A stretch of 64,000 nucleotides of DNA from an uncultured Methanomassiliicoccales archaeon. Its GTDB lineage: Archaea > Thermoplasmatota > Thermoplasmata > Methanomassiliicoccales > Methanomethylophilaceae. The position numbers and the translations under genes were made by a program. Positions within the stretch are counted from its first letter, which is position 1; every line of letters begins with the position of its first letter. Below are positions 3 to 63,918 of the stretch, in pieces. Under the pieces are notes generated by a model. It ran no database searches. It was not told the DNA's origin and saw only the letters and a program-made list of their open reading frames with translations. Location of the stretch: the NCBI GenBank assembly GCA_949292635.1, contig CASEZY010000004.1, positions 62,001-126,000 on the forward strand. The letters run 5' to 3'.

Positions 3-437
3 GAGAGTTACTTCTCGGCGCGTGTCGCCCTGCCACCGGGCTCGTTCATGAGAAGACAGCGCGAATACCTGGAGAACACGGCCGGCCTCACACCCGAGGA
101 CCTTCAGGACGGTCTGCCCGAGGAGGAGGCGGTGAGGAAGGTGAAAGAGCTCCTGGCCGGGAGGACCGTCACATCCTTCGACATAGGGTTCACGTTCAAG
201 AAATTCCTTCTGTACGACCCCTGGGACATCACGTTGGAGATGTCCATCATGTCCTCCGCATCCGTGGGCCTTCCCCCTTCGTTGAGGGAGAGCGACATCC
301 CGGAGCCGATGATGGTGGATAGGGCTTACAAAGCGCTGTTCCCGGATGACGAGAAGGCCGTCGGCGACGGCAGGTCCGCGTTGGACCTTGCCCTGAAGAC
401 ATCGTTCATCATGCTCGAGATGCGGGCTAGAAGGTGA
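3..437 (+). CDS. 3'-5' exonuclease-like protein, C-terminal part (truncated by window edge)
   Basis: The reading frame is open to the left edge, so only the C-terminal 144 or so residues are seen; the ATG at 48 is probably internal. The visible part has a run like the second half of a DEDD (DnaQ/RNase T-like) exonuclease: a proline-rich stretch, then T-G-L-T-P-E-D-L, a helix, and GRTVTSFDIGF, which resembles the HNxxFDxxFL region of that fold. The expected His-Asn is not present, so it may be a divergent or inactive family member. It ends convergently with the next gene, overlapping it by 11 bp. The family assignment is inference from weak motif similarity. Confidence 0.4.
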   Translation, partial: ESYFSARVALPPGSFMRRQREYLENTAGLTPEDLQDGLPEEEAVRKVKELLAGRTVTSFDIGFTFKKFLLYDPWDITLEMSIMSSASVGLPPSLRESDIPEPMMVDRAYKALFPDDEKAVGDGRSALDLALKTSFIMLEMRARR

Positions 438-837
438 ACAGCGACCTGACTATGGAGTCGAAGGCCTGCAGTGCCAGCATACCGATGAACAGTATCAAGA
501 CTCCTATCCCCAGGACGATGCCCATGGCACCGCCCGAGGTGAAGAGGAACACCAACGATGTCATCAGGAGGATACCGATGGCAAGGAACATGATCCCCTT
601 GCGCCAATCCCTCTGATACAACTGACCCAGACCGAATAGTCCGAACACCGCGGGGATGGTGCTGAGAAGCAGCACGGTGCGATGGCGGGTGAGCTTGGTG
701 GCGGGAGCCTTGTCATCATCGATGATACGGTATTGATCCTTGGGCTCCTCCCGGGAGATCTGACGGTAGCACTTGGGACAGGTGAGGCTGAATCCGGGGA
801 CCCTCTCCCCGCAGTACGGGCATCTCCTGTCCGCCAT
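427..837 (-). CDS. Zinc-ribbon plus TM2-like membrane protein
   Basis: This is a 136-aa protein. The N-terminus is a zinc ribbon with Cys6, Cys9, Cys20 and Cys23. After a charged linker come about three hydrophobic helices (roughly residues 53-72, 82-100 and 103-122), with the G-x-x-G-L-G-Q-L-Y and W-x-x-G-I pattern of TM2-domain proteins. It sits in the cytoplasmic membrane with a cytosolic metal knuckle; its function is unknown. A paralogue with two ribbons lies at 54463-54924. The start ATG is the first in frame, 5 bp from the end of the upstream thioesterase gene, so the two are probably cotranscribed. Confidence 0.75.
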   Translation of the reverse strand: MADRRCPYCGERVPGFSLTCPKCYRQISREEPKDQYRIIDDDKAPATKLTRHRTVLLLSTIPAVFGLFGLGQLYQRDWRKGIMFLAIGILLMTSLVFLFTSGGAMGIVLGIGVLILFIGMLALQAFDSIVRSLFTF

Positions 838-841
838 GCCA

Positions 842-1261
842 TCAACCCCTGTGTATCGCGAAGGCGGTGAACGTCCCCGACGCCACCAGCTTTCCAGCCG
901 AATACACCCTTATATCATATACGCCGAAGGACTTAGACTCGTTGATCTTGTGAGACACCGATTCCAGAGAATCCCCCATGGCGGGACGGTGGTAAATGAT
1001 GTTGGCGCTCTGACCGATGGCGTCCCTGAAGATGTTGCTGGCGAACGCCAGGGTATGGTCGGCGATGGCGTAGATCACCGAGCCGTGGCAGACGCCCAGG
1101 CTGTTCCTGTGTTCCGGACGGAGGTCCATGCGCATGCGCACCTCGTCGGGGGAGATGTACGTGGGCTCTATGCCCATATGCCTGGCGAACGGTGCCTGGT
1201 ACAGCTCCTCCAATCTTGACGTCAGTCCGTCCAGGGACGGGTCGATCTCGCAGTCGTCCAT
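842..1261 (-). CDS. PaaI-family hotdog thioesterase
   Basis: This 139-aa single hotdog domain has the usual PaaI length. The motif NSLGVCHGSVIYAIADHTLAFA matches the H-G-G-x-x-x-x-x-x-D central helix of PaaI acyl-CoA thioesterases, here with HGS in place of HGG. It is a likely cytosolic acyl- or aryl-CoA thioesterase; the substrate cannot be told. It is transcribed leftward together with the zinc-ribbon membrane gene 4 bp downstream. Confidence 0.8.
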   Translation of the reverse strand: MDDCEIDPSLDGLTSRLEELYQAPFARHMGIEPTYISPDEVRMRMDLRPEHRNSLGVCHGSVIYAIADHTLAFASNIFRDAIGQSANIIYHRPAMGDSLESVSHKINESKSFGVYDIRVYSAGKLVASGTFTAFAIHRG

Positions 1262-1289
1262 GATTCCGAACCTCGCTTTTCGTATTTAT

Positions 1290-3092
1290 TCAGTCCTCGA
1301 ACTGGCTGTTGTACAGCTCCGCATAGTATCCGTTCAAAGCCATCAGCTGTTCGTGGTTGCCTATCTCCTTGATGTCCCCGTCCCGCATCACCAGGATCAC
1401 ATCTGCGTTGCGGATGGTGGACAGACGGTGGGCGATCACGAAGGATGTGCGCCCTACGGTGAGGTCGTCCATGGCCTTCTGGATCACACGCTCGGTACGG
1501 GTGTCCACTGACGATGTGGCCTCATCCAATATCAGCAGCGGGGCGTTCTCTATCATGGCCCTGGCGATGGTGATCTGCTGCTTCTGTCCCGCGGAAAGGC
1601 TGGCCCTGTCGTCGAGGACGGTATCCAACCCGTCGGGAAGGGTGTTTATGTAATGAGCCAGACCCACGGCTTCGCACGCTCTCATCACGTCATCGTCGCT
1701 GACGCCCTGTTCAGAGTAGATGATATTCTCGCGGATGGTGCCCTCGAAGATCCAAGTGTCCTGCAGGATCATGCAGAACATGTCGTGGACCTCCTCGCGG
1801 CTCATGTCCGTGGTGCGTACGCCGTCAATGCGGATCTCCCCGCCGTCGGTCTCGTAGAACCTCATCAGCAAATTCACCAGAGTGGTCTTCCCCGCCCCGG
1901 TAGGACCGACGATGGCCACCTTGCTGCCTGGTTCTGCTGTGAATGTGAGGTCGTGGATGATGGTCTTACCCGGGACGTATCCGAAGCGGACGTGGTCGAA
2001 CTCCACCTTCCCCCTGATCTCCGGGACCTTGGCATCCTTGGAGGATTCGTCCTCCATCTCCTTCTCGTCCAGGAACTCGAACACTCTCTCTCCCGCCGCG
2101 GCAGCGGACTGCAAACTGGTGTTGGCCTGGGCGATTATGTTCAGCGGCGAGGTGAACAACCTCACGTAGATCATGAACGACACGATGGTACCGATACCGA
2201 TGCTGCCCTGGACCATGAGGATGGAACCGGTGATGCAAACCGCCACGTACCCCAGGTTTCCGATGAATCCCATCAGCGGCATCATCATTCCCGACATGAA
2301 CTGGGAGCGCCATGCGTTGCCGTACAGGCGGGTGTTGGCATCCACGAAACGCTCGATGGAGGATCTCTCGCCGTTGAACGCCTTGACCACGGTGTGTCCG
2401 GAGTAGACCTCCTCGATCTGTCCGTTCACTTCGCCAAGAACTCTCTGCTGGTCGTCGAAGTACTTCTGGCTGTGACCGATGATCAGGAACATCAGCACGA
2501 AGCCGAAGACCGTGGCAACGATGGCCACGGCGGCCATGACCCAGTTGGTGTAGACCATCATGATCAGACAACCGATCAGCAGGGCCATGGCGTTGACCAG
2601 AGAACCGATGCTGTTGTTCAGGGCCACGCCCACAGAGTCTACGTCGTTGGTGATACGGCTGAGGGTGTCACCGAAGGGATGCCTGTCGAAGTATCCCAGG
2701 GGCATGCGGTTCATCTTCTCGGAGATCTCCGTACGCATCGCCTTGGCGATCCTCTGGGAGGCTGTCGCCATTATGTACCCTTGAATGAAATTGAAGACCC
2801 AGGATGCCACATATATGCACAGTAGCAGGACGGCGATGCCCATGATGGCATCCATGTCGATGGAGCCGAACACGCCCTCGGAGATGAGGTCGGACATCTC
2901 GCCCACATAGTTGGGTCCGATGACGCTCATCACAGCACCCAGGGCGGCGAACACCACAGCCACCATGATCACTGCCATATACGGCCTGCAGTAGCGCATC
3001 AGCTTACGGATGGTTCCGGTGAAGTCCGACGCCTTGTCGGTGACCACCCCCGGCGGCCCGTGCCTCCTCCCTTGAGGTCCGGGCGGACTCAT
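1290..3092 (-). CDS. ABC exporter, fused membrane and ATPase domains, consensus catalytic site
   Basis: This 600-aa half-transporter has an N-terminal six-helix ABC exporter membrane domain (about residues 35-330) and a C-terminal ATPase. The ATPase carries Walker A GPTGAGKTT, an LSAGQ signature and Walker B LLILDEATSSVD with the catalytic Glu. Its start overlaps the end of the next gene upstream on the same strand (stop at 3089), so translation is coupled. With that partner it should form a heterodimeric multidrug or lipid exporter of the BmrCD/LmrCD/TM287-288 type. The transported substrate is not predictable. Confidence 0.9.
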   Translation of the reverse strand: MSPPGPQGRRHGPPGVVTDKASDFTGTIRKLMRYCRPYMAVIMVAVVFAALGAVMSVIGPNYVGEMSDLISEGVFGSIDMDAIMGIAVLLLCIYVASWVFNFIQGYIMATASQRIAKAMRTEISEKMNRMPLGYFDRHPFGDTLSRITNDVDSVGVALNNSIGSLVNAMALLIGCLIMMVYTNWVMAAVAIVATVFGFVLMFLIIGHSQKYFDDQQRVLGEVNGQIEEVYSGHTVVKAFNGERSSIERFVDANTRLYGNAWRSQFMSGMMMPLMGFIGNLGYVAVCITGSILMVQGSIGIGTIVSFMIYVRLFTSPLNIIAQANTSLQSAAAAGERVFEFLDEKEMEDESSKDAKVPEIRGKVEFDHVRFGYVPGKTIIHDLTFTAEPGSKVAIVGPTGAGKTTLVNLLMRFYETDGGEIRIDGVRTTDMSREEVHDMFCMILQDTWIFEGTIRENIIYSEQGVSDDDVMRACEAVGLAHYINTLPDGLDTVLDDRASLSAGQKQQITIARAMIENAPLLILDEATSSVDTRTERVIQKAMDDLTVGRTSFVIAHRLSTIRNADVILVMRDGDIKEIGNHEQLMALNGYYAELYNSQFED

Positions 3093-4876
3093 GACAACTC
3101 CTCCTCCGAAAGCTGGGACAGCGCGATCTCAAGGTAGGTGGGACATGTCTTCAGGAGATCCTCATGCCTTCCCGAGCCCACGATCCTGCCGTCGTCTATC
3201 ACCAAGATGGTATCCGCGTCACGGATGGTGCCGATCCTCTGTGCGACGATGATCACGGTGGCGTCGCCCAGCTCATCCTTCAGAGCGCGGCGCAGGTTGC
3301 GGTCGGTCTTGTAGTCCAGAGCGGAGAACGAATCATCGAAGATGTAGACCTCCGGGTCCTTGCACACCGCCCGTGCTATGGACAACCTCTGCTTCTGGCC
3401 GCCGGAGACGTTCCCCCCTCCCTGGGAGATGCGGGCATCGTAGCCCCCATCCATGGCCTCAACGAAGTCCCTTCCCTGAGCGATGGCGACGGCCTTGCGG
3501 ACATCCTCGTCATCAGTTTCTTCCGCACCGTAGGCGACGTTGCTGCGGACCGTGCCGGTGAATAGGATGGCACGCTGCGGAACGTATCCGATCCTGTCCC
3601 TCAGGGCCTCCTGCGTGTATTCGCGAACATCCCTGCCGTCCACCCTCACCGAACCGGAGGACACGTCGTAGAACCTAGGGATGAGATTGATTATGGTGGA
3701 TTTGCCACAACCTGTAGCGCCGATCAGAGCGACGGTGTCACCCTTGGACGCTTTGAACGTGATGCCGGACACCACAGGCTCCTGTGAGCCCGGGTAGCAA
3801 AACGAGACGTCATCGAACTCCACCGTCCCCTCCTCTCCGGAAACGCCTTCCGTCTCCGTCCCGTCGTGGATGGTGGGCTTGGTGACTATCACCTCCACGA
3901 TACGGTTCGCAGCAACCAGGGACCTGGGGGCGATGATGACGATCATCGTCAGCGACATGAAGGCCATGATGATCAGCATGGCGTAGTTGGAGAACACCAC
4001 CATGTCCGCCAGCAGCACCACCCTCTCGGCGGTGGGCGCCGCATCTATGAGGAACGCTCCGACGATGTAGATGCCCGCGGTCAATCCCGACATCAGGAAT
4101 GTCATGCTCGGCGATATCAGCGCCATTATGCGGTTGACGAACAGGTTGGTGTCCGTGAGCTCCTTGTTCGCACCCTCGAACTTCCCCTGCTGGTAGTCCT
4201 CGGCGTTGTACGCCCTGACAACGCGCATACCGGTGAGGTTCTCCCTGGTGATACGGTTGACGTTGTCCGTCAACGACTGTATGAGCCTGGATTTCGGTAT
4301 GGCGACGAAGACGATCACCGACATGATCAGCACCAGTATGACCAGGGCTCCGCCGGTGAGCAGTGTCCACTCGAAGCTCTTGCCCAGGATCATAGCGAGA
4401 CTCCAGACCGCCATCACCGGCGCCTTCATGATCACCTGCATGCCGACGGCGATGAACAGCTGCACCTGGGTGACGTCGTTGGTCGATCTCGTGATCAGAC
4501 TGGCGGTGGAGAATCTGCCTATCTCCTCCATGGAGAAGTCCAATGTGCGGCGGAAGACTGCCTCCCTGAGCCTCATGGCAACGGTGGCGGCCACCTTGGC
4601 GGCCACGAATCCCGTTACAAGAGCTGCCACCAGGCTCCCCAGTGCGCACAGCATCATCCACATACCGGTCTCCAGGACCTGGGAGGTCTCGGTGCCCGGG
4701 GTGTAGAGCAGCTGCACGATCTCGGACATGTAGCCGGGGATGGTTATGTCCAGGTACACCTGGACCACAACGAACGCGAAGGCCACCAATATCATCAGGT
4801 AGTCCTTCCGGTCGGTGTAGCGCATGAACACGCGGATCTTGTCCATACGGGAGAGCCCCTCGTCACCCTTCGCCAT
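3089..4876 (-). CDS. ABC exporter, partner subunit with degenerate Walker B
   Basis: This 595-aa half-transporter has the same layout as its neighbour: six transmembrane helices then an ATPase with Walker A GATGCGKST and signature VSGGQKQ. Its Walker B reads VYIFDDSFSALD, with Asp in place of the catalytic Glu, as in the degenerate-site subunit of heterodimeric exporters. A TATA-like gttatata (minus strand, about 4900-4908) lies about 28 bp before the ATG, so the message is probably leaderless. It is the first gene of the leftward exporter operon. Confidence 0.9.
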   Translation of the reverse strand: MAKGDEGLSRMDKIRVFMRYTDRKDYLMILVAFAFVVVQVYLDITIPGYMSEIVQLLYTPGTETSQVLETGMWMMLCALGSLVAALVTGFVAAKVAATVAMRLREAVFRRTLDFSMEEIGRFSTASLITRSTNDVTQVQLFIAVGMQVIMKAPVMAVWSLAMILGKSFEWTLLTGGALVILVLIMSVIVFVAIPKSRLIQSLTDNVNRITRENLTGMRVVRAYNAEDYQQGKFEGANKELTDTNLFVNRIMALISPSMTFLMSGLTAGIYIVGAFLIDAAPTAERVVLLADMVVFSNYAMLIIMAFMSLTMIVIIAPRSLVAANRIVEVIVTKPTIHDGTETEGVSGEEGTVEFDDVSFCYPGSQEPVVSGITFKASKGDTVALIGATGCGKSTIINLIPRFYDVSSGSVRVDGRDVREYTQEALRDRIGYVPQRAILFTGTVRSNVAYGAEETDDEDVRKAVAIAQGRDFVEAMDGGYDARISQGGGNVSGGQKQRLSIARAVCKDPEVYIFDDSFSALDYKTDRNLRRALKDELGDATVIIVAQRIGTIRDADTILVIDDGRIVGSGRHEDLLKTCPTYLEIALSQLSEEELS

Positions 4877-49684: not shown

Positions 49685-52252
49685 ATGAGAGCCCGGGCCC
49701 TCTGGCTGATACCGCTGCTGATCCTGGTGATCGGAGCATCCTCGGCAGAGGGTACGGGAACGGCCACCGACGTTCAGTATTCTTACACCGAAACAGAATT
49801 GACCGTGAACAGCGACGTCCCCGACGACTACGCTTGGGATGCTTCCATCAAGAGCGGCGCCACCGTCGTGATCGTCTCCGAAGGGGTTGCATCTGTGGGG
49901 AACAACGCCTTCGCCGATTTCGAAGCTCTGCGTAGGATCGTCATCCCGTCCTCGCTCACATCTCTTGGTGACGGAGCGTTCAGCGGCTGCAACAGGGTCG
50001 TCGATCTGGAATTCTCCTCCAACAACTGTACGGTAGGCACCAACGCCTTCGACGGCCTCGGAATGACGTCCACCGGCGTGTATGTCACCTTCTCTACCAA
50101 CGTCACGACCATCCCCGCAGACCTGTTCAGATGTGACGGCGTGACCAACATCCGCGAAGTCAGATTCCTCGGAACCGTGACGACGATAGGCGCCTACGCC
50201 TTCTACGGATGCACAGGCATCTCAAACGTCCCGGATACGGTGACAAGCATCGGCGAGATGGCATTCTACGACTGCGATGACATCGTGGACCTGGTGCTTC
50301 CCGAAGGGCTACAGTCACTGGGGGATGATGCCTTCTACAGGTGCGGGAACATCGTCAGCATAACCTTCCTCGCTACCGAATGCACAGGTCCGGGGATGGT
50401 GGGTGCGTTCAGGGACGTGGGTTCGGAAACGCTGAGCTTCACCTTCGGACCGGAGGTCAAAAAGATACCCGAACATCTGATGAGCCAGAACTACACCTCG
50501 AAAATCTCGTCCCTCGAGATACCGCCCTCCGTGACCGTCATCGGGGACGGTGCCTTCAAACAGTACGCCGGCCCGGATCCGGTGTTCCTGTCGTATGATA
50601 ACATCACCTCCATCGGAAGGGAGGCGTTCGCCATGAGCTCCGGGATCGAGACCTTCACCATCGGTCCCGGCGTGACAACGATCGGAGACGGCGCCTTCGA
50701 CGACTGCAGGGGGCTGAAGGAGCTGACGATCACCGCATCCCTGAACGATCGCACCGAAGCGGAATGTCTCTTCGATTCCGTGGGATCCACGGACACCAAG
50801 GTATCGTTCACCGGCGCCAGGATACCCTCGTATCTGTTCAAGGGATTCGATGAGATGACAGAGCTGGCTCTTGTCGATACAAGCGTCATCGGCTCACATG
50901 CGTTGGAAGGATGCACCGGCCTGTCGTCACTGTCGATGAGCGGCATCACCCAAGTGGAGGAGTACGGCCTGGCAGGTTCCGGACTGAAGGATGTGACCAT
51001 CCCCGACGGCATCACTCTTGGACAGAACGCACTCACCGGATGCCTGGCGGAATCGATCACCGTCGCCGGCACCCTGGAAAACGTATCCGCAGGGGCGTTG
51101 TCCTCGCTGCCGAGTCTGAAGACGCTCACTGTAATCGAATACCCCGGGGATGTGAGGTTCGATGACATCATGCCAAACATGTGCCAGGGTGTCACCCTGA
51201 TAGTGCAACTGGACGAGATCGGCGACCGCATGTTCGAGGACTGCTCCGGGATCACATCCCTTCAATCGGATGCCAGACACATCGGCCAGAGGGCGTTCGC
51301 CAACACCTCGCTGAATGAGGTGACCGTCGATGCCGGCACATTGAGCATCGGCGGCGGTGCCTTCGCCGATATCACTACGTTAGAGCGGATAAGGTGGGAC
51401 GTGGCCTCCTTCGTCCCACCGGGTGAGCCCATATTCGAAGGCTCTGGCACATCCGGTGGCACCATCGTCATCGGCACACCCTACGTTCCCGCAGGAGTGT
51501 TCGAAGGGAGCACCGTCGGGAACGTGAGATTCACCACCACCATCAACTCCGTGGCCGACGGGGCCTTCCGTAACAGCGGTCTGACGGCCGCGGACATATC
51601 CTTCCTTACCGACGTCCCTAACAACCTGTTCGACGGATGCTCCTCGCTCTCCAACGTAACCTTGAGCACATCCCTCCGCAGCATCGGCGACGAGGCCTTC
51701 CGCAACACCGCACTCACCCGCATCACATTCCCTCCCTCATTGAAGGAGATAGGCGACCGTGCCTTCCGGGACTGCAGGGACCTCACCAGCCTGGAATTCC
51801 TGGGCCACGGCATCTCCGTCGGTGACGAAGGCTTCGCCGGTAGCGGCCTTCTGATGATCACCGTGCAGAGCATATCCTCCTGCGGAAGGGGCGCGTTCCC
51901 AACCTGCGGCGTTATCCTCTCCGGGGACGTACCACAAGGCACCTTCGCCGAAGGCTCCCTCATCTACTGCGACCATCCCGTCGAGGGGTTCGACGTCCGC
52001 CCCTTGCAGAACGTGCACAAGTATTCGATACTCGGAGATGATGTGATCCTCCAGAGTGAATATCCGGAGGAGATGATCCCCTACCCGGACAGGTTCTCGG
52101 GATGGGTGGAGGTCGACGACATCATGACCGCCACTTGGACGGAGATGCCGACACCGTATCAGGAACCTCCCGATCAAACGTGGATAGAGGTGTCCGCCGT
52201 GCTGCTGATGGCCATCGCCGCGGCGATGGTGTTCGTCTTCGCCAGAAGATGA
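49685..52252 (+). CDS. BspA-like leucine-rich-repeat surface protein
   Basis: This 855-aa protein has a signal peptide (LWLIPLLILVIGASSAEG), about twenty LRR_5-type repeats of the form I-x-x-x-A-F-x-x-C-x-x-L-x-x-x-x-I-P-x-S-V/L, and a C-terminal membrane helix (VSAVLLMAIAAAMVFVFARR). It should be anchored in the archaeal membrane with the repeats outside. Such proteins bind host or microbial partners and are common in gut-associated microbes. The ATG fits a TATA-like gctttaac about 26 bp upstream. Confidence 0.92.
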   Translation: MRARALWLIPLLILVIGASSAEGTGTATDVQYSYTETELTVNSDVPDDYAWDASIKSGATVVIVSEGVASVGNNAFADFEALRRIVIPSSLTSLGDGAFSGCNRVVDLEFSSNNCTVGTNAFDGLGMTSTGVYVTFSTNVTTIPADLFRCDGVTNIREVRFLGTVTTIGAYAFYGCTGISNVPDTVTSIGEMAFYDCDDIVDLVLPEGLQSLGDDAFYRCGNIVSITFLATECTGPGMVGAFRDVGSETLSFTFGPEVKKIPEHLMSQNYTSKISSLEIPPSVTVIGDGAFKQYAGPDPVFLSYDNITSIGREAFAMSSGIETFTIGPGVTTIGDGAFDDCRGLKELTITASLNDRTEAECLFDSVGSTDTKVSFTGARIPSYLFKGFDEMTELALVDTSVIGSHALEGCTGLSSLSMSGITQVEEYGLAGSGLKDVTIPDGITLGQNALTGCLAESITVAGTLENVSAGALSSLPSLKTLTVIEYPGDVRFDDIMPNMCQGVTLIVQLDEIGDRMFEDCSGITSLQSDARHIGQRAFANTSLNEVTVDAGTLSIGGGAFADITTLERIRWDVASFVPPGEPIFEGSGTSGGTIVIGTPYVPAGVFEGSTVGNVRFTTTINSVADGAFRNSGLTAADISFLTDVPNNLFDGCSSLSNVTLSTSLRSIGDEAFRNTALTRITFPPSLKEIGDRAFRDCRDLTSLEFLGHGISVGDEGFAGSGLLMITVQSISSCGRGAFPTCGVILSGDVPQGTFAEGSLIYCDHPVEGFDVRPLQNVHKYSILGDDVILQSEYPEEMIPYPDRFSGWVEVDDIMTATWTEMPTPYQEPPDQTWIEVSAVLLMAIAAAMVFVFARR

Positions 52253-57231: not shown

Positions 57232-57739
57232 TATCTCGCAGAGTACGAAAAGGGAGATGTCGGAGGGCATGTTGGATTCTCACATCTTACACATATTTAA
57301 ATCAATTTTAACACAGGGCTTCAATGAAATCGTGTCCGTCCAATCCGAGCGAATAATTCTTCGATCTCTTCCTGATTCATGCTATGGCCTCGGGATCGTT
57401 AAAAGTGAGTCCAAGACATCAATTGAACCGGGTGTTAAAGGCCAGAAGTCTGTTGGGACACCATAAGGGAACCTACATTGCATCGTCTCCTTCAACGAGT
57501 TCAATGTTAGCAGCACGACAAGCGAATGGGAGCACCGTTCCGCGAGAACAAGAGAGCATACAACAGAGCAACACTGTCAAACTCAGACATGACACGTAAC
57601 AACCCATCGATCTTTGTAACCTACACACCCCGAAGATTGCGGGCACCAGTAGAGTAAGGGTGCGCTATCCGCCAATTGGTCATCATTTTTCACTCCCAAA
57701 ATTCCACTATTAATCATCACCCGTAGATGATAGTTCATC
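57232..57739. other. Intergenic region upstream of the ubiquitin-like locus
   Basis: No supported gene is seen in about 500 bp. The left part is the AT-rich promoter of the AbrB-like gene. Short open frames in the middle (for example 57384-57599) have no recognisable product and atypical composition, and may be remnants. A TATA-like attaat around 57709 lies about 30 bp before the ATG of the conjugation cluster. Confidence 0.5.
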
Positions 57740-58102
57740 ATGCTACGGCATGAGGAGCTGGTGAAAATGGTGAAAGGAATCATCAAGACGATAGTGGGAG
57801 AGAGTGTCAATGTGGAGTTCGGGGAGACCGATACCCCCAGGGATGTTCTCAAGGAGGTCAGCCGTGAGAACTTCGAACTCGTAGTTCCGTTCTTCGAGAA
57901 CCGCCAAAAGGCAGAGGAGTTCAGGAACACTGGCGTCCTGGATGTCCAGAACAGCATATTCTCCTTCATCGACGGATCCGAGAAGACGCTGAGACTGGAC
58001 TTTGACATCCCGATCATCGAGCAGCTGATCGATATCAAGATCGACGAGAAGTCCGTACTGACATTCCTCGTCTCGATCAATGCCGTCGTGGGGGCCATCT
58101 GA
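57740..58102 (+). CDS. Protein in the ubiquitin-like position of the conjugation cluster (unrecognised)
   Basis: This 120-aa acidic protein is the first gene of the cluster. It has a helix (HEELVKMVKGIIKTIVG), a central helix (FFENRQKAEEFRNTG), and strands FSFIDGSEKTLRLDFDI and SVLTFLVSINAVVGAI. I cannot recognise a beta-grasp by sequence alone. Its place in front of E2, JAMM and E1 genes is where Bil-type operons encode the ubiquitin-like protein. It ends VVGAI: no diglycine, but a single Gly followed by two residues that a peptidase could trim. The ubiquitin-like role is inference. Confidence 0.55.
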   Translation: MLRHEELVKMVKGIIKTIVGESVNVEFGETDTPRDVLKEVSRENFELVVPFFENRQKAEEFRNTGVLDVQNSIFSFIDGSEKTLRLDFDIPIIEQLIDIKIDEKSVLTFLVSINAVVGAI

Positions 58103-58132
58103 ACAAACATTCGGTCACAAGAAGGCGACGCT

Positions 58133-58711
58133 ATGCTGAGGATGAGTAAAGAGATGCAGGTCTACTCAGCTCTTGCTGAGACCATGCGCATGTACTTCTA
58201 TGGTAAGGTGGGAGTCACCGTTAAACAGAGATCCACCACCATAGAGTTCCGCATCACCGGCATCCCGATTTTCGCTAGTGGGAACAAGGAGATCTGCATA
58301 AGCATTCCTGCCGGGCAGATCGAATTCAATGACGGGGTCAGACTCAGGAATGGGATCATGAACAGTGCAGTAAGCATGAAGATGAGCAATGGTCAGACGT
58401 TCCCTCACCCCCATGTGTGGGATGGTGGGATGCCGTGCTGGAACGGTAAAGGCATCACCAACCTGCAGGGGCTGTTCTGCATAATCATCAACACCATCAC
58501 GTGGAGGAATGTGACCATCGACTCCAAGATGCACGGCCACTTCACTAGTTGCAGGTGTAGTTCGAAACTCTATGCCTCCTCCGACCCCATAAGAACTATC
58601 GAGAATCACAAGAACGCAATCAGCAAAGCAGTCGGATTCGATGTCAGAACCAGGGATCCGGTAGAGGTTTATCCCGCATTCACGAAGAACCTCAGCAAAA
58701 TCATGGGGTGA
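58133..58711 (+). CDS. E2-like ubiquitin-conjugating-fold protein
   Basis: This is a 192-aa protein. An N-terminal helix and strands (TTIEFRITGIPIF, EICISIPAG) are followed by FPHPHVWDGGMPCWNGKG (residues 90-107). That reads like the HPN-x(n)-G-x-x-C-L active-site stretch of E2 enzymes, with Cys102 as the catalytic residue and HPH in place of HPN. A helix, LQGLFCIIINTITW, follows as in the UBC fold. It would carry the ubiquitin-like protein as a thioester. It starts 30 bp after the first gene and ends 4 bp before the JAMM gene. Confidence 0.75.
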   Translation: MLRMSKEMQVYSALAETMRMYFYGKVGVTVKQRSTTIEFRITGIPIFASGNKEICISIPAGQIEFNDGVRLRNGIMNSAVSMKMSNGQTFPHPHVWDGGMPCWNGKGITNLQGLFCIIINTITWRNVTIDSKMHGHFTSCRCSSKLYASSDPIRTIENHKNAISKAVGFDVRTRDPVEVYPAFTKNLSKIMG

Positions 58712-61179: not shown

Positions 61180-62889
61180 ATGGGCTACCATTTTCAAACA
61201 TTGGATACCAAAGAAGGTCATTGCCCCATCATCAACCTGGAACTGGACGACCAGGGTAAGGCGATAACCACATTCATGATTGACCTGGTAGCCTGCCGTG
61301 CCGCCATAGAGCTCCTATCATCCAAGACTGGGATTCCGATCAGGGATCTCATCATCAGAGACGATGGGAGTCTGGATTATGCCGGGTCTGAACGCGAAAC
61401 TCTGGAGGATGTCTTCACAGACTGTCTGAGCCTCTGCGAATTCACGCTCAACCGCATCACACCCCATTCTGATAAGGTCATCAGGGGTCTGATGGTACAT
61501 GTGAGGTTCTCTCTTGCCCACATCTTGAAAGTGGAACCGTCCGACCGGTACGTTCGTTGTGTCAAAGGAAGGGTCCGGAACATCTCCTCGTTTACATTCA
61601 CGATGGGCAGTGACGATGAGTTCAGAGACATATCCCACATCACATATGATAAGAAAAAATTCAGTGATGAGATGGGGCTGGCAGTCGGGTCATACTCGTA
61701 TGCCATGATCGAAGATGCGCTGTCTCTGAGAACGGTCTGTGAAAGATACTACATGTCGCTGTTGTCAGAGACGTCTGGACGTGAACCCGTCTTCCGGGTA
61801 AGTGTGCCGGAAGAGACCCAATTACTGGACGATATCGGGGCTGACGGAGTTGCATCGTTGTCAGAGATCATCTCCAGGCTCTGGAGCATTTGTTCTAGTG
61901 TGCCCCCGCTCAAATACCACGAGGATAGGGACCTTACGGACATGCAGAACAACAGAGAGTGCGGGGATGGTCCCGCCATGGCCAGGGTGAGGGACCGCAG
62001 ATCCGGCCTCGAATCTTCCATGAAAAAGATCTCCGATGTTTGCCGCCGCAACAAGGAATCTGTTATGAACGTGATGAAATACGCTCGTCTGCTGGAAGCT
62101 GTGATGTCTGGGGCCACGGTCAGGAAGAAGGATATCACGCTCGCATTCAGGGACGAATCGATTCTTAGGTTGTTGGACCCGGACATCTTTGGCAGGGGAT
62201 ATTCGACACCTCCGCTTCTTTTCATTGACTGTGATGCGTTGAAGGCAGATTACACGAAGATTATCGATAGGTTCCACAACCCCGCCGGCGTCTGCTGGAT
62301 CTCATCCAATGCTGCCTCTGCTGTGAAATGTCAGTGGAAGTATGCCAAAAGACAGAATGCGGCCACAAGGATCGAAGGAGCATTGTGCTTCATATACAGA
62401 CCCGACGCATTTACTGTCGATAGGATACTGCGCTTGAAGCCAAAGGGACAGGAGGAAGAGACCGCAGAAGTTGGTGAGTCGCCATTGAAAGACCTCCATT
62501 CCCCCGCCATATTGGTCTCTTATCCTCAAGACACGTTCAGGATCCTCTCAGGGCTCTCGGATCCCATCAGAAGGGAACATGCCAAACATGTCAGGATGAT
62601 CGTTGAATTCGATGAGGGGCTAAAAGGGCATACGCCTCTCGTCGTCAGCAACCAGAATTCCGCATACATCCCTGTGGTGACAATATCTGATCTGAAGGAA
62701 CTGTTCACCATACACACAGAATGTGTCCTATCAAAGGTCAGATTAGCAGTATCTGAGATTCAAAAGCAGTTGGAAGGCTTCCGTCCGAGGAACGGCCCCG
62801 AAGAAAGGGCGGTGTCCTTGATCAGAGGATGTTGCAACATCGCGCTGGATGACGTTACGGTCGCGGAAATGAGATTGTCCGACTCATAG
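61180..62889 (+). CDS. Large protein of unknown function in the conjugation cluster
   Basis: This 569-aa protein is of no family I recognise. It has no signal peptide or membrane segment. The N-terminal 200 residues are mixed alpha/beta; the middle (about 255-330) is helical and charged (MKKISDVCRRNKESVMNVMKYARLLEAV); the C-terminal third is again alpha/beta (LLFIDCDALKADY, GALCFIYRPDAF, PAILVSYPQDTF). Position as the last gene of the unit suggests a target, effector or ligase-like factor. It starts 32 bp after the previous stop and overlaps the convergent gene by 6 bp. Confidence 0.7.
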   Translation: MGYHFQTLDTKEGHCPIINLELDDQGKAITTFMIDLVACRAAIELLSSKTGIPIRDLIIRDDGSLDYAGSERETLEDVFTDCLSLCEFTLNRITPHSDKVIRGLMVHVRFSLAHILKVEPSDRYVRCVKGRVRNISSFTFTMGSDDEFRDISHITYDKKKFSDEMGLAVGSYSYAMIEDALSLRTVCERYYMSLLSETSGREPVFRVSVPEETQLLDDIGADGVASLSEIISRLWSICSSVPPLKYHEDRDLTDMQNNRECGDGPAMARVRDRRSGLESSMKKISDVCRRNKESVMNVMKYARLLEAVMSGATVRKKDITLAFRDESILRLLDPDIFGRGYSTPPLLFIDCDALKADYTKIIDRFHNPAGVCWISSNAASAVKCQWKYAKRQNAATRIEGALCFIYRPDAFTVDRILRLKPKGQEEETAEVGESPLKDLHSPAILVSYPQDTFRILSGLSDPIRREHAKHVRMIVEFDEGLKGHTPLVVSNQNSAYIPVVTISDLKELFTIHTECVLSKVRLAVSEIQKQLEGFRPRNGPEERAVSLIRGCCNIALDDVTVAEMRLSDS

Positions 62890-63918
62890 ATACTCTATGT
62901 CGATGTAACAACACCCGGTATCTTCCATGTATGACAGGCAGTACCTTCCACCAATACCCTTCAAGACATCCTCGAGTACCGACGATATGGTGGATCTGCC
63001 GATATCATCGATCAGACGCTCGCATATCCGAAACTCCAACCGGGTCCGCCTACGGGATATGAGGCGGACGAACACATCATGCAGGTCTTCCTCCCTGTAG
63101 ATCACCACTCCGTTTTTGCTGTGATAGTTGTACCTCAGATCGGTCGACTGATAAGCGTTGCTCCATACCCTGGTCTTCCCCACGAGAATGTCACTGATGT
63201 TGAAATAATCGTATTTCGGACGTCCCAAACAGCCCCCCAAATCCCACGTTACGTCCAAATGATAACAGCCGCCATCCAAAAAAACCATGTTCCATGCATG
63301 ATTCTCTCCGGTATTTGTTACGCCTGTGACAATTCCGACGTCAAGCCCGCATCTTCTCATAAGATATGACGCGGCTTTGGAGATCCCATCACAGTTACCG
63401 CGCCCGCATAGCAACGGCCCTGCAACATCATGATACTTCGGAAGACCGACACTGTATTCTACAGAATTCGCCAAATGATCGTGTATGGACAACTCCGCCT
63501 CAAAGGGATCGGCTTCGACAGCTTGGGACACACGATCGCCTATCTCCTCCAAGGCGGACCTTTGACGCTCGTAAGCGACCTTGCTCATTCCGTAGGTGGG
63601 CACGACGGTCAACCGCCTCCCGGATCTAGGGAGCATCCTGATTCCAATCACATTGGGTAACAACGGGTTGTCATACAGGGCTGCGGCCAATACACCCATT
63701 ACGTCAGATTCGGGACATCTGCCCACGCCGATCTCCCTATCCATGGATGCGATCCCGGTGGCCAAACTCGCATACACCTTTTTCAAACTGTCATCAAGAA
63801 GGGAGAACCTGAATGTCGTACCCCCTTCTGGAAGCCCTTTTATCATGTACCGAGTGGCCCATGGGCATGACTCGTCACGGGACGTCGACCTCCCAGGGAC
63901 CATACCTGAAGATGACAT
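62884..63918 (-). CDS. Transglutaminase-fold (papain-like) protein
   Basis: This is a 344-aa protein. Cys176 in GRGNCDGISKAASYL, His207 in GENHAWNMV and Asp222 in YHLDVTWD give the full Cys-His-Asp triad of the transglutaminase-like superfamily, whose prokaryotic members are mostly peptidases. The N-terminal 130 residues hold a helical start and no signal peptide, so it is cytosolic. It meets the conjugation cluster tail to tail with a 6-bp overlap. A peptidase acting on conjugates is attractive but unproven. Confidence 0.8.
   Translation of the reverse strand: MSSSGMVPGRSTSRDESCPWATRYMIKGLPEGGTTFRFSLLDDSLKKVYASLATGIASMDREIGVGRCPESDVMGVLAAALYDNPLLPNVIGIRMLPRSGRRLTVVPTYGMSKVAYERQRSALEEIGDRVSQAVEADPFEAELSIHDHLANSVEYSVGLPKYHDVAGPLLCGRGNCDGISKAASYLMRRCGLDVGIVTGVTNTGENHAWNMVFLDGGCYHLDVTWDLGGCLGRPKYDYFNISDILVGKTRVWSNAYQSTDLRYNYHSKNGVVIYREEDLHDVFVRLISRRRTRLEFRICERLIDDIGRSTISSVLEDVLKGIGGRYCLSYMEDTGCCYIDIEYL

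Follow-up and report, generated by a model that had tools for sequence, protein, structure and literature searches.

A probable single-glycine ubiquitin-like modifier in a divergent E1-E2-JAMM operon of a Methanomassiliicoccales archaeon

The protein P0001, encoded on the forward strand of the window (the whole stretch of 64,000 nucleotides that was analysed) at positions 57740..58102, probably serves as the modifier for a conjugation operon of a divergent E1-E2-JAMM type. It would be a divergent ubiquitin-like protein (Ubl) that is conjugated through a single glycine, and the operon would represent a novel version of a cassette type that is already known. This reading draws on the position of the gene, on the enzymes encoded downstream of it, on its C-terminal tail and on a limited resemblance of its N-terminal half to ubiquitin.

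An operon encoding E2-like, JAMM and E1-like proteins

P0001 heads a same-strand run that continues, in order, with P0002, P0003, P0004, P0005 and P0006. None of the six ORFs is disrupted, and codon scores mark each of them as coding. P0002 (58142..58711, +; 189 amino acids, with a possible alternative upstream ATG at 58133) is an E2-like protein with the motif HPHVWDGGMPCWNG and the candidate catalytic residue Cys99. It has no match in Pfam and lies outside the family E2 HMM. In local alignments, it scored 57 against the E2 of the stand-alone cassette L049 (z 7.8, reached by 0/200 shuffles) and 55 against the E2-like phage protein of locus L127 (z 6.0), while hhalign placed residues 89-123 on the E2 family with E=0.0027, and a HPHV...C region is common to P0002 and the cassette E2s. 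P0003 (58716..59327, +; 203 amino acids) is a JAMM/JAB protease with intact KECGALLIG and HSHx7SxxD motifs, matching Pfam Prok-JAB (E=2.6e-7, 31 bits, at a cutoff of 25) and, by hhalign, the JAB family (95.8%). The gene for P0004 (59317..60561, +; 414 amino acids), which overlaps that for P0003, encodes an E1-like activating enzyme that matches Pfam ThiF with 122.9 bits; a residue-by-residue alignment with cassette E1s revealed that it keeps the GCGxLGNExxKNLA, NLxRS and CxxC...CxxH motifs as well as the 'SC' cysteine (Cys224). With their catalytic signatures intact, the E1, E2-like and JAMM proteins of the operon appear credible as judged from sequence.

The two remaining members, P0005 (60569..61147, +; 192 amino acids), which starts 7 nt after P0004, and P0006 (61180..62889, +; 569 amino acids), have no family match in Pfam, NCBIfam or PADLOC, and for P0006 no relatives were detectable in viral contigs, plasmids, libraries or fetched cassettes. 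They may act as target, adaptor or regulatory partners. By eye, P0005 could pass for a JAB domain without metal ligands; however, its profile comparison was not significant, and aligning it pairwise with P0003 gave nothing meaningful.

Coding character and start codon of P0001

P0001 is a real coding sequence. Scored against the window's own long ORFs, it reaches 0.43 log-likelihood units per codon, and none of the five alternative frames over these positions exceeds 0.05. A 175-amino-acid ORF antisense to it (57583-58110, -) was dismissed on codon usage (-0.07 per codon).

From its first codon (ATG1), P0001 comprises 120 amino acids. The sequence GAGGAG, which falls within the His-Glu-Glu-Leu codons at positions 4-7, lies 9 nt 5' of a second in-frame start codon at 57767 (ATG10). 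Given this spacing, translation may begin at ATG10, yielding a predicted form of 111 amino acids (57767..58102, +). Alternatively, ATG1 could serve as a leaderless start; a TATTAA sequence is located ~28 nt upstream of it. The length of 111-120 amino acids is to be seen against the 78-95 amino acids that are usual for modifiers. The initial annotation had pointed to an N-terminal helix as an oddity for a minimal beta-grasp protein. This objection loses weight here and may be an artefact of a wrong start, since translation from ATG10 would remove nine N-terminal residues and thereby account for the odd helix. Counted from ATG10, P0001 resembles the first hairpin and helix of ubiquitin and would begin close to the ubiquitin-like beta-1.

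P0001 occupies the position of the modifier gene in related cassettes

For comparison, related cassettes were gathered by scanning about 85,000 species genomes for an E1 signature and by adding relatives from within the archaeal order. Many of the resulting E1 loci are Ubl-E2-JAB cassettes, and for the relatives, a reading of the E1 matches as housekeeping ThiF/MoeB proteins proved wrong, the loci being Ubl-E2-JAB cassettes as well. In 52/62 of the related cassettes, counted over E2s with a recognised upstream neighbour other than an E2, the Ubl is encoded immediately before the E2. P0001 lies immediately before P0002, in agreement with this rule. The earlier statement that the gene sits where the modifier should be is thus correct, given the E2-like, JAMM and E1 proteins (and two more ORFs) encoded downstream on the same strand and the prevalence of Ubl genes directly before E2 genes. 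This position is the strongest evidence for a modifier role of P0001. Despite the fitting position, the family Ubl HMM does not recognise P0001; it may work like a Ubl of these cassettes, but its membership of the Ubl sequence family is at most putative.

Stand-alone prokaryotic E1-Ubl-E2-JAB operons have been described by Iyer et al. 2006 (class 6d and relatives; PMC1779556). With operons of this kind (L033, L036, L049, L103, L104 and L113), the window operon shares the four kinds of genes and the candidate modifier before the E2, the E1 signatures (GCGxLGNExxKNLA, CxxC...CxxH and the 'SC' cysteine), a JAMM protease and tails in which a single Gly is either terminal or followed by a few residues. 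However, its genes are arranged as Ubl-E2-JAMM-E1 rather than as E1-Ubl-E2-JAB, the family HMMs capture neither P0001 nor P0002, two additional ORFs lack relatives, and P0004 lacks the additional C-terminal Cys pairs found in several bacterial E1s.

A second, order-wide cassette in the same genome

The genome (G000) encodes a further E1-Ubl-E2-JAB cassette on contig C15 (L122 1915-3905, -), the Ubl of which ends in DPEGGCRWDFPALC. Among its relatives, a family Ubl was found beside the E1 in 29/29 loci examined (L003-L031), and this type of cassette, with a DPEGG tail that is often extended by extra residues, appears to be conserved across the order. A targeted literature search found no published description of it. 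The window operon and the order-wide cassette agree in enzyme set, host group, the placement of the Ubl before the E2 and, in part, the presence of residues after the Gly. In contrast to the window operon, the order-wide cassette has the DPEGG tail, a shorter E1 (~253-276 amino acids) and a Ubl that is recognised by the HMM. A search with the E2 did not find the window operon in other genomes of the order (147 genomes).

The presence of this cassette gives rise to the main rival reading, namely that the enzymes encoded in the window use the C15 Ubl in trans, which would leave P0001 as an accessory or regulatory protein. The C15 cassette is complete, and the family HMM recognises its Ubl at E=1e-32 while leaving P0001 unrecognised. 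However, the cassette comes with an E1, an E2 and a JAB of its own, and its conservation across the order extends to genomes in which the window operon was not found; stand-alone cassettes, moreover, normally bring their own Ubl before the E2. Because the C15 enzymes are thus provided for and a gene already stands at the modifier position of the window operon, we consider the use of the C15 Ubl in trans unlikely and P0001 the better candidate for the modifier of the window operon.

The single-glycine tail of P0001

The C-terminus of P0001 reads ...SVLTFLVSINAVVGAI before the stop codon (...DEKSVLTFLVSINAVVGAI), with the tail NAVVGAI. As the initial annotation had described, there is no Gly-Gly at the mature end, and the protein finishes in VVGAI, with a single Gly followed by Ala-Ile. 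The three codons concerned occupy 58091..58099 (+), where the Gly (Gly118) is the proposed conjugation residue and Ala-Ile the tail that the JAMM protease would remove; this assignment combines sequence and a MAFFT alignment, in which, unguided, the Gly of P0001 falls on the terminal Gly of the Ubl family.

Lack of a diglycine had been regarded as exceptional, a view that the related cassettes do not support. Of 61 distinct family Ubls, 59 had a tail that could be classified, as Gly-Gly (36) or Ala-Gly (23); 30/59 stop at the Gly and 29/59 extend 1 to 12 or more residues beyond it, as does P0001 with its two residues after Gly118. Hence, a single Gly followed by a few removable residues is nothing unusual in this group (23/59 Ala-Gly, 29/59 extended). 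Close analogues of VVG|AI are PLLEAG|A (L103), PVLVAG|ALHGSD (L104) and PEITAG|AIEF (L059), and an unrelated phage Ubl-like ORF ends in LKHG|R. Across these cassettes, a candidate for a prokaryotic modifier should not be discarded for want of a diglycine, given how common Ala-Gly tails are in this E1 family. It should be noted that the tail alone is weak evidence, since ~15% of unrelated long ORFs have a Gly within their last three residues.

Of the explanations offered earlier for the unusual end of P0001, trimming of Ala-Ile by the JAMM enzyme is the preferred mechanism; closely similar tails occur in the related cassettes, and the cleavage as such is a prediction. For an archaeal pro-ubiquitin, JAMM trimming has been experimentally established in the ubiquitin operon of Caldiarchaeum subterraneum, which, like the window operon as proposed here, comprises an archaeal E1, an E2, a tailed pro-modifier and a trimming JAMM protease (PMC5654768). 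The Caldiarchaeum system differs in its diglycine, its nine-residue tail and its RING-type E3.

Fold of P0001

Residues 15-40 of P0001 (IKTIVGESVNVEFGETDTPRDVLKEV) align without gaps to residues 5-30 of ubiquitin (score 43, z 3.1, p 0.012), a match that is one among several comparisons made. Only 10/1381 background ORFs reach this score, among them 5 Ubl genes of Bacteroidales clusters (105-107 amino acids) and 4 cassette E2s, and the genuine Ubls of the family reach a median score of 45 against ubiquitin, with 41.5% of them below the score of P0001. While the N-terminal half of P0001 beats 99.4% of the background, the C-terminal half cannot be told from background, 83% of which scores as well, and both halves together are only within the top 4% of the background, with 13% of shuffles as good. 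The family Ubl HMM gave P0001 a noise-level score, which 47/1381 background ORFs and 81/1000 shuffles equal.

Structure prediction with AlphaFold resulted in a pLDDT of 45.6 for the single sequence and of 46.5 for P0001 from ATG10 with an alignment of 16 cassette Ubls; with values of ~46 in both runs, no fold was called. The second model, which is biased by its alignment, has the order strand-strand-helix-helix-strand-strand-helix-strand, and its Foldseek neighbours are largely beta-grasp proteins, all with E>=0.05 and none significant. We treat a beta-grasp fold of P0001 as putative.

A modifier without such a fold has to be considered. In the CBASS system of bacteria, Cap2/Cap3 act on cGAS, which has no beta-grasp, and a single conserved C-terminal Gly or Ala suffices for its established conjugation by E1/E2, from which a JAMM-type deconjugase releases it (PMC10097602). 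By analogy, P0001 might be conjugated through its C-terminal Gly (or through Ala after trimming of Ile) and be a non-beta-grasp protein, in keeping with the missing confident beta-grasp signal in the HMM search and both AlphaFold runs. The conjugated protein in CBASS is, however, a nucleotidyltransferase, unlike P0001, and Cap2 combines the E1 and the E2 in one protein. P0001 has no family match in Pfam, NCBIfam or PADLOC and neither an enzymatic nor a cGAS-like nucleotidyltransferase domain, and its N-terminal half is more ubiquitin-like than nearly all background ORFs. We therefore regard a cGAS-like substrate as improbable.

We likewise give little credence to the notion that P0001 is unrelated to conjugation, for example a small regulator or inhibitor, and that the modifier is hidden in P0005 or P0006. 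Both are operon members without detectable relatives, and P0005 ends in ILLGEE, likewise with one Gly and two residues after it. Yet P0005 and P0006, at 192 and 569 amino acids, greatly exceed the size of typical modifiers, neither is encoded before the E2, and neither exceeds shuffles in comparison with ubiquitin (p 0.20 and 0.17, respectively); the N-terminus of P0006, examined as a hidden Ubl, was no better than shuffles either. Finally, conjugation of the full-length C-terminal Ile, or a decayed and inactive system, would fit the rarity of the operon and its diverged sequences but is highly improbable with six intact, coding ORFs and intact E1, E2 and JAMM signatures.

Proposed conjugation cycle

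With P0001 as the modifier, the operon would work as follows. A P0001 precursor would be made, probably from ATG10, and the JAMM protease P0003 would remove Ala-Ile and expose Gly118. The E1 P0004 is predicted to adenylate Gly118 and take the modifier onto Cys224, from where Cys99 of the E2 P0002 would receive it for transfer to a target, at a lysine or another nucleophile; P0003 may also reverse the conjugation. A four-component logic of this kind is shared with the bacterial ISG15-like Bil system (BilABCD), where it is the JAB enzyme that makes the modifier's C-terminal Gly accessible (PMC11354881). BilA consists of two Ubl domains, whereas P0001 (120 amino acids, or 111 from ATG10) is too short for two.

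Going further, the operon might constitute a new self-contained archaeal conjugation system apart from the order's own cassette, with a beta-grasp modifier carrying an inserted helix, a JAMM-released single-Gly tail, a remote E2 and P0005 and P0006 as dedicated partners. We offer this wider proposal tentatively and with some doubt. If P0001 is indeed the modifier, one archaeon with a 1.5-Mb genome would run two parallel ubiquitin-style cascades, one with a diglycine and one with a single Gly. Nature would then have set up a test case for the way in which E1 and JAMM proteins discriminate between modifiers and for the minimal need for a Gly-Gly tail.

Relatives and genomic setting

Orthologues of the E2 P0002 were found neither in 147 genomes of the order nor in viral contigs, plasmids or genome contigs, where scans with a single protein reach close relatives only. 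Searches with the E1 P0004 covered 390 genomes of the phylum as well as viral contigs, plasmids and phages and yielded no orthologue. P0001, P0002, P0005 and P0006 had no matches in the fetched cassettes. Over all the data searched, neither an orthologous operon nor an orthologue of P0001 for comparison of the Gly was found, which does not prove their absence, since the E1 signature scan would miss E1s that lack the exact motif.

The operon is located in a variable region, as indicated by a neighbouring gene encoding 159 amino acids, which is missing from 30 relatives, and by a drop in GC content at the operon from ~0.58 to ~0.51. Just past the window, near the contig end, a transposase-like ORF was recognised by eye (L124 8824-9540, -, on contig C4 of G000), in keeping with a mobile or variable setting of the operon. 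MCR alpha is encoded in the same genome, which marks the host as a methanogen.

Two further proteins in the window deserve mention. A transglutaminase-core protein (Pfam, 48 bits; 62884-63918, -) is encoded convergently to the operon and has distant homologues in 4/5 same-genus genomes and one other. The 855-amino-acid protein encoded at 49685-52252 (+) has numerous repeats of the leucine-rich type and a membrane segment at its C-terminus; by eye, it is a BspA-like surface protein in an archaeon.

Ubl genes in secretion clusters and viral contigs

The search for related cassettes also led to loci of other kinds. In Bacteroidales, a family E1, a Ubl of 105-107 amino acids and an E2 are encoded inside a type VI secretion cluster (matches to VasE/TssK and gp25), as in locus L093 (426-6689, -), where the Ubl tail is PDPFPG; similar arrangements occur in L045, L080, L088, L105 and L108. 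A literature search found no published account of Bacteroidales Ubl genes in type VI secretion clusters.

Among viral contigs, the 99.9-kb phage-like contig of L127 encodes, at 190-3561 (-), a JAB protein, a 378-amino-acid protein with the E2-like motif HPHVVNGRPCWGG and the 71-amino-acid Ubl-like ORF ending in LKHGR, while a further viral-contig match to the E2 motif (L126) was a chance match. Another viral contig (L036 5926-8501, +) carries a complete E1-Ubl-E2-JAB cassette with the Ubl tail PVLVAG, located downstream of a gene that, by eye, resembles a portal-type gene.
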